From Harmothoe impar (taxonomy: Eukaryota; Annelida; Polychaeta; Phyllodocida; Polynoidae): 64,000 nucleotides of DNA. The notes under the pieces were generated by a model, which made no database searches, was not told the origin of the DNA, and saw only the letters and a program-made list of their open reading frames with translations. A program made the position numbers and the translations under genes. This document shows, in pieces, positions 7,318 to 63,135 of the stretch. Each line of letters opens with the position of its first letter. Position 1 is the first letter of the stretch. The stretch is from assembly GCA_947462335.1 (NCBI GenBank), contig OX381709.1, forward strand, positions 36,784,186 to 36,848,185. Reading direction: 5' to 3'.

Positions 7318-7326
7318 GGGGGGGGG
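7318..7326 (+). other. G9 run at the Gag/RT frame junction
   Basis: The Gag reading frame, continued past its stop, encodes a segment with an N-P-N-C-x-EF-x-P motif up to this run of nine G. The RT frame is open from this run onward, a -1 shift. The run is either a slippery site or a length mutation that separated the frames. Confidence 0.4.
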
Positions 7327-7369
7327 AAGGGTTATTCAATCGTCCAGCCAGCTAGAGGTATCAGACACC

Positions 7370-9058
7370 ATGTATAAAGTATGCCCTGTTTCACTTTTGA
7401 ATCCTATGTGTGAGGAGTTCATTCCAGGGAAGAGTTGGAACACTGGTGAGGTTTCTCACCCGCGTGGTAGCTTAGCATTGAACCCTATGGCAGTGTCGAG
7501 GCTGGATCCAACCTGTCCACCCTTCACGCTGGGGGTAGTAGCACATGAATGTGGAGTTGCCAGTTTAAATCAGGCGACTGAGTTTTCACCCAGGGGAAGG
7601 GTTCTTCTATTTACCATTGATGGTAGCCGTGATATAGGGGATGTTAGAGTCTTTAGTGATTGCTTAACTGGTACTTGTGACTGTACATATTATATTGGCT
7701 CTGAAATTACTCACTTAAAACCCTGTAGGTTCGCTGCCTTTATCTCAGGCAGCGGTAATGTTTTTCCTGGTAAACCCTTAGATGCTGAATACATCTGGGA
7801 GGGGGTTAATAGGGGTTTTAAAATTGTTGATGAAAATTGTGACACGGAGTACTCCTGTAGCAACTATAAAACTATTTTGGAACCGCAATTTTATTCTGAA
7901 ATGTGTGATATAATCCGTCAGGAAGTGGCAGATGGGTATGTAACAAAGGTTACCCACCCTCCTAGGTGTGTTCATGCTATGGGGGGGGTTGAAAAATCAA
8001 ATGGTAAGCTTAGACCCATCACTGACTGCTCCATGCCGGCTGGTAAGGCGATAAATAACTTTATGTATACTACATATGAGCCTTTTTCCTATAATTCAGT
8101 TTACACAGTAGTGGACCAGTTGGATCAAGGCATGTTTATGTCAGTGGTGGATTTGAGGTCCGCCTATAGGTCGGTAGGGGTATGTGCCCCACATGCTGAG
8201 TACCAGGGGTTCGCTTGGGATTTGGGTAAGGGTAGAGAATACTATATAAACAACAGGTTGAGCTTTGGTCTCAGGTGCGCTCCTAATATTTTTAATGCCC
8301 TATCTAATTTCATTGTTAAGGTTGCAAAATCTTATGGGGTAGAGAAGGTGGTTAACTACCTTGACGATTTCATTGTATTGGCGAGGTCAGAGGCCGAGTG
8401 TTTGCGCCAGAGGAATGTATTAATTGAAGTAATGGAGTTTCTGGGTTTTGGTATATCCTACGGCAAGGTTACCACCCCCAGTCAAAGGACTGTGTTCTTA
8501 GGTATCACTATTGACTCTGCGGCTATGGAGCTCTCCCTACCCCCGGAAAAAATTGTTAAATTAAAGGAAGCCCTCGACGAATGCTTAGGTATGCAATATG
8601 TACATAAGAAAAGGTTGCAAAAAATAGGTGGGTTAATGTCCTTCTGCTCTCAGGTTGTAAGGGGAGGTAGGACCTTTAGCCGCAGGTTATACGATCTATG
8701 TGCTAAGGCAAAAACAGGTAGAGCTATTTTCCTTTCTCAGGCTACTAAAGACGATCTACTATGGTGGAGGCAGTTTTGTGATGTTTTCAATTGTCGTGCC
8801 CTGTTCAGGAGAGAGCTGGTGGACCTACCCATGGTATCAGACGCATCTAAGAGGGGTTTCGGCGCCTGGATGGGATCTGATTATTTTTACGGTTGTTGGG
8901 AAGGCTTTGGGGTTAGGGATATTAGTCCGCTGCATGAGGAGGCTGCCCCAGAGATGGACGGTATTCGGGTACATAGAGGTAACATTAATGTATATGAACT
9001 ACGTCAAAATAATGTTATAAAATTTCATTTAACGTTATGCAATAGTAAGGAGCCTTAG
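7370..9058 (+). CDS. pol: Reverse transcriptase plus truncated RNase H (DIRS/Ngaro-like)
   Basis: This 562-codon ORF carries RT landmarks in order. There is a first catalytic Asp in SVVDLRSAY (about residue 260), SFGLRCAPNIFN (about 300-310) typical of Ngaro/DIRS RTs, and the YLDD box at about residue 330 in NYLDDFIVLA. A thumb with FLGITID follows. RNase H begins with VSDASKRGFGAW (first Asp) and reaches the Glu motif NVYEL. There the sequence passes abruptly into a fold-back element at about 9000, so the last 15-20 residues are foreign. The remaining RNase H and any tyrosine recombinase are missing. The first ATG at 7370 may not be the true start because the frame is open back to about 7319. 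The absence of nonsense mutations suggests a fairly young copy. Confidence 0.8.
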   Translation: MYKVCPVSLLNPMCEEFIPGKSWNTGEVSHPRGSLALNPMAVSRLDPTCPPFTLGVVAHECGVASLNQATEFSPRGRVLLFTIDGSRDIGDVRVFSDCLTGTCDCTYYIGSEITHLKPCRFAAFISGSGNVFPGKPLDAEYIWEGVNRGFKIVDENCDTEYSCSNYKTILEPQFYSEMCDIIRQEVADGYVTKVTHPPRCVHAMGGVEKSNGKLRPITDCSMPAGKAINNFMYTTYEPFSYNSVYTVVDQLDQGMFMSVVDLRSAYRSVGVCAPHAEYQGFAWDLGKGREYYINNRLSFGLRCAPNIFNALSNFIVKVAKSYGVEKVVNYLDDFIVLARSEAECLRQRNVLIEVMEFLGFGISYGKVTTPSQRTVFLGITIDSAAMELSLPPEKIVKLKEALDECLGMQYVHKKRLQKIGGLMSFCSQVVRGGRTFSRRLYDLCAKAKTGRAIFLSQATKDDLLWWRQFCDVFNCRALFRRELVDLPMVSDASKRGFGAWMGSDYFYGCWEGFGVRDISPLHEEAAPEMDGIRVHRGNINVYELRQNNVIKFHLTLCNSKEP

Positions 9059-40285: not shown

Positions 40286-40505
40286 TGTAGAGGTCGCGGA
40301 AAACTTAGTCATTGGATTGGCCGGGAATCGAACCACAGACCTCTCTCCCCGGTGACAAGCGTGCTAACCGTTACACTACCAACCCGTGTCTGACTGTTCT
40401 CCGCTCCCTACGTTACTGGATCGGTATGGTACAGAGGGATAGGATTACCCAGGTGTTTCACCCCTTCGGGCTCTCCACCAGGGTACAGGGAATCCTAACT
40501 CTACA
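40286..40505 (-). mobile_element. Solo LTR of a TRIM-like element carrying a tRNA-like gene
   Basis: A 220-bp block starts TGTAGAGGTCGCGG and ends ACTCTACA, i.e. TG...CA with short inverted ends. TTAG is duplicated at both flanks (40282-40285 and 40506-40509). Two segments match the LTR at 58933: GGTCGCGGAAAA near the start and TACGTTACTGGxTCGGT about 100 bases on. Between them lies a different tRNA-like module. No second LTR is nearby, so it is a solo LTR, presumably left by LTR-LTR recombination. The minus strand is the tRNA-sense orientation. Confidence 0.8.
40313..40385 (-). tRNA. tRNA-like gene inside solo LTR (Asp GTC-like)
   Basis: The 73-nt minus-strand sequence has a 7-bp acceptor stem (GGGTTGG against CCAATCC, one G-T), discriminator A, an A-box-like GTGTAACGGTTAGCAC and a B box GGTTCGATTCC. 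TGTCACC in the anticodon region resembles tRNA-Asp(GUC). A T4 run follows 9-10 nt after the 3' end. The T stem has mismatches, so a working decoder tRNA is unlikely. Confidence 0.45.
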
Positions 40506-58786: not shown

Positions 58787-58956
58787 TGTATCCCATCTTC
58801 TGAATATTAGTGTGCATTTCAAGAAATGGAAAGTGCTTATTCATTGAATTCACCAATGCCTTTTTACTGGAAAAAATGTGTAACCATTGTTGTATTTTCA
58901 CAGACTTAATACATAATAATCATATATCATATTGTAACGGTCGCGGAAAAATCGTC

Positions 58957-59029
58957 TGGAGAAAGCGGGACTCGAACCCACGACCCCCTGACTCCGGAGC
59001 CAAGTGCTCTACCACTGAGCTACTTCCCC
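58957..59029 (-). tRNA. tRNA-like gene in LTR (CCG loop, Arg-like), copy 1
   Basis: 73 nt: acceptor GGGGAAG pairs fully with TTTCTCC (two G-T), discriminator A. The A box is TAGCTCAGTGGTAGAGC, the T arm GTGGG-TTCGAGT-CCCGC, the B box GGTTCGAGTCC. The anticodon loop contains CTCCGGAG. Best stem pairing (CTTGG with TCAGG) leaves an 8-nt loop, so decoding is doubtful; CCG would be Arg. T5 follows six bases after the 3' end, a Pol III terminator. Its 3' end plus CCA matches the element's own primer-binding site. Confidence 0.7.
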
Positions 59030-59319
59030 TTCTGACAATCTAACAGCGCCGTACGTTACTGGGTCGGTTCGGTAACCACTGCCCTTACACAGCTCCCCCA
59101 GCCTCTATCATGCCCCGTAGCAGCCAATGATAGAAGCTCACAGTGCCGAACCGATCCAGCCGATTTGTTGACTTGACTCCATGCTGAACTCCAACTGCCC
59201 GTACTGGGAACCAACTCTTCACTACCTGCTCCTCCAACTACCAACCGCCAGCAGGTGGCCAATCCCCAGCAAGTTGGGATGCTCCAACCGTCTAAGTCAA
59301 CCGTACCAGCGAGTGCGCT

Positions 59320-59333
59320 CGCTTTCTCCACCA
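59320..59333 (-). other. Primer-binding site complementary to the LTR's own tRNA
   Basis: The plus strand reads CGCTTTCTCCACCA, equal to the last 11 bases of the LTR tRNA-like sequence (CGCTTTCTCCA) plus CCA. One base (G, 59334) separates it from the LTR. In element sense it is TGGTGGAGAAAGCG. Confidence 0.8.
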
Positions 59334-59358
59334 GTGTAACGGTCGCGGAAAAATCGTC

Positions 59359-59431
59359 TGGAGAAAGCGGGACTCGAACCCACGACCCCCTGACTCCGGA
59401 GCCAAGTGCTCTACCACTGAGCTACTTCCCC
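59359..59431 (-). tRNA. tRNA-like gene in LTR (CCG loop, Arg-like), copy 2
   Basis: Identical to the copy at 58957-59029, in the other LTR. In minus-strand sense this is the 5' LTR copy. Confidence 0.7.
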
Positions 59432-59499
59432 TTCTGACAATCTAACAGCGCCGTACGTTACTGGGTCGGTTCGGTAACCACTGCCCTTACAATATCAAA

Positions 59500-61348: not shown

Positions 61349-62323
61349 CTATAAAGTGGCAAATAGTGTAGACAGGTTGTTGGCTACACGCTGAGAGGGG
61401 AGTGATGCCACGTATGGTTTAAGACCTGACACAGTGGTCCAGGTACCGTGCTTGGCGATGTCTTTGGTATTAGAGCCAGATGAAGTAGCTGCCTGGCAAC
61501 CACCTCTCCTTAATGAGTGACCTGAGAAAGAAGCCGCATAGGGGACCTTGAGAGTGGTCAGCACATGCCTGACCACAGTAGTGAGGTTCCCCGGGGTGAC
61601 AGGTCTACCATCAGGTAGTATAAAGGCTGGAGAGGAGTTGTAGGCCGGTACCAGGTTAACATAATTGTCCCAAGCTTTGGCTGGGCATGCAGGTGAGTTG
61701 GGTATACGAGGTAGTGAGAGAACTGCAGGGCGAGTTCCTCTCTTGATAGTTTTTGATGACTTGATCACTATAGTGAGGCCTGCAGTAGTAGAAGTTATAT
61801 CACCCCTTGTTAATGTGTGAGGTCCTTGCCATAGAGTAGCAGTCGGGGTGAGTAAGTTAGAAGCACGTAAGAATGCGAAGAAACCTACACATAATGCAGC
61901 TACCAGGGGTACAGCCTGTGTTACACCTTGTAAATACTGACACACTCTGACTAAGTCCTGGGGGGTCAGTGGAGGAGCTGGTGCAGCCATGTGTGGTTTA
62001 AGGTTTATGGCCCCTTTTGCTACTGCTAGGGTCTCAGGGGCGAGGAAGGCTGATGTGTCACCACCTCTAGCTTCTATCCACATTCTCGCGCCGGAGGTGT
62101 AGTTGCGGCGAGAGGCAGGGGAAGTGAGTGAATTGGCCAAAAACTGTTGGTATAGCGCTGAGTCCTGAATCGAGGGGGACAGTATATCTACTGAGTAATA
62201 TATAGCAAAGGTCAAGTAATACCTTGCCTGTCTTAGTCTGTTTATTGCTGTGTCTTCCGACACAGGCGCCTTGTAAGACTGTAGTGCTTGCTGTCCTAGG
62301 GGGCAATCTGCAATACAAATCAT
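61349..62323 (-). CDS. Tyrosine recombinase of DIRS-order retrotransposon
   Basis: This 324-aa ORF has the tyrosine recombinase catalytic set in order: Arg153 (GFFAFLRASNLL), His269-x-x-Arg272 (SFSGHSLRRGG), Trp295 at the H/W position (KHGTW), and nucleophile candidate Tyr304 (GLKPYV). The N-terminal 110 residues are the helical SAM-like core-binding part (SPASRRNYTSGARMW). It would integrate a circular cDNA without target duplication, as known for DIRS elements. Its ATG overlaps the stop of the upstream ORF as ATGA. No disabling mutation is visible. A TTGCAG just inside the ORF could instead be a splice acceptor. Confidence 0.8.
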   Translation of the reverse strand: MICIADCPLGQQALQSYKAPVSEDTAINRLRQARYYLTFAIYYSVDILSPSIQDSALYQQFLANSLTSPASRRNYTSGARMWIEARGGDTSAFLAPETLAVAKGAINLKPHMAAPAPPLTPQDLVRVCQYLQGVTQAVPLVAALCVGFFAFLRASNLLTPTATLWQGPHTLTRGDITSTTAGLTIVIKSSKTIKRGTRPAVLSLPRIPNSPACPAKAWDNYVNLVPAYNSSPAFILPDGRPVTPGNLTTVVRHVLTTLKVPYAASFSGHSLRRGGCQAATSSGSNTKDIAKHGTWTTVSGLKPYVASLPSQRVANNLSTLFATL

Positions 62324-63120
62324 ATAGGATCAAATACCGGTAGTGGGTCAGATGGCTCGACTCTCTGGAGACCCCTGCTCTTGACCAAAGTCTGAGCAAG
62401 TAGGGCTTTGGCTTTGTCGTGCTGGCGACTTAAGGCGTCGGCGAGAGGCAGGTCTTTCCCGTACCTATGTCTAACTGTGATGACGTGGTCCTTGTTGGCT
62501 GCGTCAAGCCATAACTGGCGAGAACAGGCTGCCAGTATGGCGTCAGTGGTGCGTCCAGTTGACAGAGCCTGGCTTGAAGCCATATTGTCTGTGTATACTA
62601 CAATGTTGAGACCTTTGGACATGGGAGGAGACAGAGTCCTGTAGGCTATGACCAAGTTCACAGCTTCCCTATGTACAATGAGAGGAAACTTCTCCTTCTG
62701 AGCTGGAGTGTACTCCAGAGAGTAGTAGTGTGAATGAGAGTTTCCCCCTCCTGAGAGTAGTGTAGAGTCACATTCAATCTCGGATTCTTGTACCGGGTAG
62801 CTGAGGAAGTGGAGGCCATTGGTGGTCTTAGCATAATTGAGAAACCACTTCACATCAAGTAGGAAGCCGTTGGTGAGGAAGGCTGGAGCCACTGGGGGGG
62901 CTTTCCTCAGGGTTTCAAGAATGCGGCACACAAAGCGACGGGCTGCTGGGATGCACTTGGAGATATGGATGACCTTTCCTACGAGTGATTGGATCTTGGC
63001 CTTATGGGCGAACCTGGTGTTGGCCCAGAGAGAGCATTCTCTTTGTACCTCTTGAAGCTTGGGTGCAGGCACCTTAAGTGTCATGTCTAGTGTATTGAAC
63101 TCAAATCCCAGCCATTCCAT
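62320..63120 (-). CDS. RNase H domain ORF of DIRS-order element
   Basis: It begins MEWLGFEFN, the LGF/FLG-type thumb motif after the RT palm, so the ORF is really the second half of the pol reading frame. A connector with helices (QSLVGKVIHISK) follows. RNase H residues are then seen in order: Asp in IECDSTLLSGGG, Glu in HREAVNLVIA, Asp in VVYTDNMAS, Asp in LADALSRQ. It is in the same frame as the upstream RT ORF, separated only by one TAG codon. It overlaps the recombinase ORF by 4 nt. Confidence 0.8.
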   Translation of the reverse strand: MEWLGFEFNTLDMTLKVPAPKLQEVQRECSLWANTRFAHKAKIQSLVGKVIHISKCIPAARRFVCRILETLRKAPPVAPAFLTNGFLLDVKWFLNYAKTTNGLHFLSYPVQESEIECDSTLLSGGGNSHSHYYSLEYTPAQKEKFPLIVHREAVNLVIAYRTLSPPMSKGLNIVVYTDNMASSQALSTGRTTDAILAACSRQLWLDAANKDHVITVRHRYGKDLPLADALSRQHDKAKALLAQTLVKSRGLQRVEPSDPLPVFDPI

Positions 63121-63135
63121 CTTCTGTGATGGGGG

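Follow-up and report, generated by a model that had tools for sequence, protein, structure and literature searches.

The 64-kb stretch of DNA analysed here (the window) contains a 559-bp TRIM at 58933..59491, with the entire element, tRNA included, on the minus strand. We read it, with a probability of roughly 0.7, as a TRIM of the Helenus type, by the published description of that group, whose LTR encodes the family's own primer tRNA, a tRNA probably shared between families. The evidence consists of the anatomy of the element, the match between its PBS and the tRNA gene in its LTRs, the covariation of the two across related families, the conservation of the tRNA stems, and junctions at which extra tRNA complement follows the PBS.

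Anatomy of the family A element

The element, which we assign to family A, is flanked on both sides by the TSD ATAT (58929..58932 and 59492..59495, read from the sequence) and is bounded by two identical LTRs of 157 bp each with TG...CA ends. In the element's sense the 3' LTR (TGTAAGGG...GTTACA) lies at 58933..59089 and the 5' LTR at 59335..59491. ARAGORN and Rfam (RF00005, 53.9 bits; gathering score 29) each give one tRNA per LTR, on the minus strand, at 58957..59029 in the 3' LTR, with a G3:U70 acceptor and A73, and at 59359..59431 in the 5' LTR; nothing else in the 64 kb reaches the gathering score of an Rfam family. The A box and B box of the 5'-LTR tRNA, read from the sequence, lie at about 59414-59424 and 59370-59380. 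Each tRNA gene is followed by a short trailer and then by TTTTT, a Pol III terminator-like T5 run (58947..58951 and 59349..59353). An earlier note on this DNA had described identical 157-bp LTRs, an ATAT TSD, and a tRNA with a T5 run in each LTR, and both the sequence and the two tRNA finders bear this out; it left unsaid that the element as a whole, and not its tRNA alone, lies on the minus strand. On the sense strand of family A, the two T5 runs are the only T runs of four or more; the absence of other such runs in A and in the related family B may reflect a Pol III transcript, for which it is weak support because A runs of four or more are missing from both families as well.

The PBS, c-TGGTGGAGAAAGCG (59320..59333, minus strand), starts one base past the 5' LTR. 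As the earlier note had claimed, TGGTGGAGAAAGCG is complementary over 14 bases to the tRNA of its own LTR: it is the exact complement, at 14/14 positions, of the tRNA 3' end CGCTTTCTCCA plus CCA, and the 15th base past the PBS start does not match the tRNA. The LTR itself lacks the CCA, running on GACGA after the tRNA 3' end. By simple arithmetic, the chance of matching the 11 PBS bases beyond the obligatory TGG at this fixed place is about 4^-11. A purine-rich, not purely purine, tract before the 3' LTR (GAGGCTGGGGGAGCTG, 59090..59105, minus strand) is the probable PPT, judged by position and composition only.

With short identical LTRs, a total length below 1 kb, an exact PBS after the 5' LTR, a PPT before the 3' LTR and no apparent coding capacity (one 121-aa stop-to-stop frame overlaps it), the element has the makeup of a TRIM. 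The tRNA-derived sequence in its LTRs is that by which Helenus is recognised, and the PBS-LTR tRNA match, present in A and covarying, departs from the reported Helenus property of having no such match.

A hairpin, AGCGAG-CGCA-CTCGCT, overlaps the 3' end of the PBS (59308..59323, minus strand); hairpins occur at the same place in families B and C too, with a sequence that differs among A, B and C. Elsewhere in the window, a frame at 7319-9058 on the plus strand carries a reverse transcriptase domain (PF00078, E 2.8e-13), the one RT among 8 window frames compared with Pfam, and two overlapping frames at 61349-63135 on the minus strand, with no Pfam match, look like a DIRS-type recombinase/RT element.

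Copies of family A across the genome

A genome search returned at least 40 copies of family A at 99-100% identity, 39 over 559 bases and one over 557. Of these 40, 28 among the matches listed were read in detail, and all 28 align at 559 bp. Differences between the two LTRs of a copy number 0-2 of 157 in these 28; a perfect 4-bp TSD, of varied sequence, is present in 23, the PBS is exact in 27, and both LTR tRNAs match the PBS at 14/14 in 25. Family A is young, dispersed and recently active.

Covariation of PBS and LTR tRNA between families

Family B (914 bp, LTR of 224) has the same PBS and the same tRNA 3' end as A. Family C, known from one copy at one locus (L008), carries a tRNA that ARAGORN calls Ala-GGC, with the 3' end CGGTGTCTCCA, and its PBS, TGGTGGAGACACCG, matches its own LTR tRNA at 14/14. 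Because the alignment of B and C spans nearly the whole length of both (73% identity, 935 columns), their PBS and tRNA sites can be taken as homologous; C differs from B at the same 2 positions in the PBS and in the LTR tRNA, and both families are still at 14/14. The predicted PBS-tRNA duplexes follow these changes: the A/B PBS pairs at -25.0 kcal/mol with its own tRNA versus -17.2 with the C tRNA, and the C PBS at -27.5 kcal/mol with its own tRNA versus -15.5 with the A/B tRNA. A pattern in which the CGCGACC U5 precedes a PBS with a changed base at position 7 gave 7 matches, compared to 4 for the reversed control, and no new family was recognised among them.

A further family was reached by prediction. 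The window holds a 220-bp solo LTR of family E (40286..40505, minus strand, TSD CTAA), in which a different tRNA occupies 40313-40385, and before the search we noted that its full-length relatives should carry the PBS TGGTGGATTGGCCG. Searching with this solo LTR gave at least 40 matches, of which 15 loci were read and found to hold family E, an element of about 871 bp whose observed PBS is TGGTGGATCGGCCG or TGGTGGATCTGCCG, scoring 13/14 or 12/14 against the tRNA in the old solo LTR from the window. The tRNA 3' end in the 5' LTR of E is mostly CGGCCGATCCA, and in the 11 distinct PBS-bearing copies the PBS matches the copy's own 5' LTR tRNA at 14/14 in 3 and at 13/14 in 8. An unmatched T stands at PBS position 10 in 7 of the 11, and in copy L084 (13/14) the odd base lies in the tRNA. 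The E PBS is unlike that of A at 5 positions, and the tRNA matches all five in 14/14 copies. Like Helenus in animals, E has a 4-bp TSD, seen in 8 of the 9 elements measured, from 10 loci; one locus, L103, is an A/E recombinant with its PBS at 9/14. The covariation between families expected from the earlier note is thus found in C (2 positions) and in E (5 positions).

The pattern that led to family F already required the tRNA to end in ATCTCCA. The best match of the F PBS to its own tRNA is 12/14, reached in four copies; one further copy is at 11/14 and one at 9/14. Aligned by hand, the PBS pairs better, at 13/14, with the tRNA of family C; F may be old, or may be using another family's tRNA. 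When copies with a PBS at odds with their own LTR tRNA were sought, the self-match claimed in the earlier note stood in A, B and C (14/14) and in E (13-14/14) and was imperfect in F (at most 12/14).

A scan of the loci collected gave 57 site sequences, identical ones having been merged but some redundancy remaining (L049 and L099 represent a single place): 32 match at 14/14, 10 at 13, 4 at 12, one at 11, one at 10, 2 at 9 and 7 at 6 or fewer. We rejected the 7 lowest as PBSs, reading them as LTR edges that meet other DNA or as broken copies, and read the site at 10/14 (L102) as a duplicated junction.

Conservation of the tRNA stems

Across eight LTR tRNAs, picked as distinct types, 96.1% of the cells in the acceptor, D and T stems are paired, and 6 pairs have changed on both sides. 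None of 500 shuffles, which ignore relatedness, was paired as highly, and slid controls reached at most 63.3%. The anticodon arm is poor in the tRNAs of families A and B, and their single-strand MFE folds are not cloverleaf (-29.4 versus -28.8, and -28.1 versus -22.6 kcal/mol with the best anticodon arm). The kept acceptor-T half fits selection for recognition by RNase P, RNase Z and the CCA enzyme and for priming, rather than for decoding.

The G3:U70 pair is present in all eight LTR tRNAs, including that of E, which is otherwise unlike tRNA-Ala. G3:U70 is known as an alanine identity element.

Search for stand-alone host tRNA genes

The earlier note had pointed to a host tRNA gene with an identical 3' end as something that could account for the PBS. 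Exact 3'-end patterns run genome-wide gave 54, 21 and 9 (E end) matches, 84 in all, of which 54/54, 11/21 (one being the family A copy L044) and 8/9 (E end) were read by eye, 73/84 in total. No stand-alone tRNA gene with the A/B or E 3' end was found outside LTR-like sequence among the 73/84 matches read: all of them, judged by eye, fall in a chimera or in LTR-like sequence, be it intact, truncated or degenerate, and for the most degenerate matches (L130 and the L021/L030/L037/L063/L067/L077 group) the trailer is the only basis for that call. This absence holds for the ends within reach of the patterns. Beyond their reach lie genes with a different B box, the 3' end of family C, the E end where A comes next, and the A/B end where GA comes next or where a different base stands before CGC and A, C or T comes next.

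A pattern for host tRNA-Ala with a TTC B box had 9 matches and gave no host tRNA-Ala, because 7 lie in family F LTRs and the other two are degenerate. Four solo LTRs on two contigs (L122-L125; C13:69466120-69467690 and C14:63581360-63590180) have almost identical downstream flanks and the look of segmental duplicates.

Junctions with extra tRNA complement

In several insertions the complement of the tRNA continues past the 14-nt PBS, for 21 nt in L089, a complete element with the TSD CCTC, for 22 nt in L032, 23 nt in L121 and 17 nt in L114. Locus L065 is a 294-bp palindrome, with arms identical at 133/133 positions and the TSD CTAC, in which a full LTR is followed by C-TGG and then by an inverted LTR running from the tRNA 3' end outward. 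At L074, a B-like element's LTR runs via C-TGG into an A-like element that is inverted and has a different tRNA, an arrangement suggestive of exchange between families. The structures point to extension, along these tRNA sequences, of DNA that ended at the PBS. The extra-complement junctions are compatible with a copied attached primer tRNA and with snap-back on the LTR alike; L089 could also have arisen by a 3-nt deletion plus one substitution (by eye), and the palindromes could have formed with no mature tRNA involved, had the PBS strand snapped back on the LTR tRNA. The earlier note had proposed that the primer supply is self-encoded and coevolves in cis. Self-encoding is supported by the PBS match and the covariation, but a purely cis supply is doubtful because L074 joins one family's LTR to another's tRNA.

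The junction tRNA-CCA-G-inverted LTR recurs in L065, L022/L024, L074, L028 and L121, insertions that are palindromic, hybrid or shortened. We considered L032 as an autonomous partner and rejected it, as the locus holds a B-type copy, odd at its ends, inserted into a Gypsy-like element of opposite orientation. That Gypsy-like element (L080+L032, C5:19663600-19671589) has gag-like and pol-like frames plus a third and is interrupted by the B-type TRIM, which shows a flank duplication of some 40 bp.

A model for self-encoded priming and its alternatives

We infer transcription, processing, CCA addition, priming and a helper element as follows. Pol III, directed by the A and B boxes inside the gene, would transcribe the LTR tRNA as far as the T run, and the transcript would be matured by RNase P, RNase Z and the CCA-adding enzyme, all mainly recognising the paired acceptor-T half. 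The CCA-tailed tRNA would then anneal by 14 nt to the PBS, one base past the 5' LTR, and be extended by the enzymes of a putative autonomous element. Plus-strand DNA would copy the tRNA end back into the PBS, so that PBS and LTR tRNA would stay matched even as their sequences drift. Read-through that ends at the 3' LTR's T run could be the source of genomic RNA, and families probably draw on one another's LTR tRNAs. Counting against the model are the imperfect self-match of F, the 13/14 of most E copies, the recombinant L103, the poor anticodon arms and non-cloverleaf folds of the A and B tRNAs, the single locus of C and the use of host tRNAs by published Helenus families (PMC10886601). For the broader proposal, the odds seem to us evenly balanced: that an LTR-element superfamily took over its primer supply, with one Pol III unit giving both primer and genome, copying locking PBS and tRNA together, tRNAs shared, and mis-extension yielding palindromic and hybrid insertions that integrate.

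Intramolecular self-priming with a Tf1-like outcome would dispense with a free tRNA, the tRNA stretch in the element RNA pairing with the PBS by 11 bp without CCA, being cut at the tRNA 3' end and priming in cis; we consider this unlikely. Folding in silico gives the corresponding hairpin, CGCTTTCTCCA/TGGAGAAAGCG, for A and B at about -17 kcal/mol, but the fold predicted for family C is a different one. The hairpin covaries as well as the tRNA model does, and L065, L022 and L074 can arise by this route, but the conserved D and T arms would be superfluous to self-priming. Self-priming would also leave unneeded the TGG of the PBS, present in A, B, C, E and F, which is explained by a CCA end that the LTR does not encode and which therefore counts for priming by a mature tRNA. 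Self-priming supplemented with an RNase Z cut and CCA addition would merge into the reading that we prefer, priming by the tRNA that the LTR encodes.

Two further explanations place the primer outside the element or give the LTR tRNA another role. Priming by host tRNAs that have these 3' ends, with the LTR tRNAs being copies of the same host genes, looks improbable, since the 73/84 3'-end matches read each lie in LTR-like sequence or a chimera, and there is no evident reason why the match of an LTR tRNA to a host tRNA should persist across the 27% divergence of B and C. It counts for host priming that the first 9 PBS bases fit a metazoan tRNA-Ala end. Known TRIMs whose PBS is clear moreover prime on host tRNAs as a rule, and it is host tRNAs that the PBSs of published Helenus match (Kojima 2024, PMC10886601). 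Kojima's reading, in which the LTR tRNA is a Pol III promoter only and the PBS match would be a leftover of common ancestry, accords with the intact A and B boxes and with the published Helenus families described there as being without a PBS-tRNA match (PMC10886601). We nevertheless give it very little credence, in view of the matched changes of PBS and tRNA in C and E and the paired changes in the acceptor stem, outside the A and B boxes.

Implications and comparison with known systems

The tRNA-primed LTR retroelements are thought to depend on host tRNAs. If the self-encoded primer is true, the element would escape host tRNA levels and 3'-tRF control, and the acceptor, D and T stems kept in a tRNA seemingly unfit for translation would be explained. 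The genome would then be a natural record of primer-PBS coevolution. A self-derived primer is also used by Tf1-type LTR elements, but there it is the 5' end of their own RNA, with no encoded CCA tRNA.

The closest known elements are Helenus (TRIMp3), TRIMs with tRNA-like sequence in their LTRs; their reported hosts are fungi, six animal phyla and one plant, and in animals their TSDs are 4 bp long (Kojima 2024, PMC10886601). A tRNA-bearing LTR is therefore already described in animals, where the earlier note knew of no element with this arrangement. Helenus and family A are alike in TRIM size, an A/B-box tRNA sequence in both LTRs, a PBS, a PPT, a 4-bp TSD in animals and the lack of coding capacity. 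In contrast to published Helenus (PMC10886601), the PBS here matches the LTR tRNA and covaries with it. According to section 3.6 of Kojima 2024, LTR tRNA and PBS showed no complementarity, and the tRNA-like sequence hence has no part in initiation (PMC10886601); this negative result is the one published test of the idea found, and our match runs against it. The anatomy of a tRNA in an LTR is thus already known, and a PBS matched to and covarying with the LTR tRNA contradicts the published statement. Among the titles and abstracts of the matches listed, in a search for which subscription journals and bioRxiv were mostly outside scope, there was no other description of an element encoding its own tRNA primer.

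Other systems share single features with family A. Cassandra and Ajax likewise carry a small Pol III gene inside a TRIM LTR, but that gene is 5S rRNA and not a primer, and the Ajax PBS fits tRNA-Leu (PMC10886601). The biv-TRIM of bivalves is, like family A, an animal TRIM with tandem and solo copies; it differs in its 202-218-bp repeats and 77-80-bp interior, and in the available text no canonical PBS was identified (PMC6934838). PbTRIM of ants resembles family A in size (480-781 bp, LTR 152-184 bp) and in its 4-bp TSD, most commonly ATAT, but its PBS fits tRNA-Leu, and the accessible part of the report mentions no LTR tRNA (PMC3532108). In cqgypsy_1 of Culex, as in family A, tRNA sequences lie at the LTR-PBS boundary of an LTR element, but they form a 149-bp twin-tRNA insertion in one large element, likened by its authors to Twin SINE, and the passages available mention no self-match of tRNA and PBS (PMC3286476).
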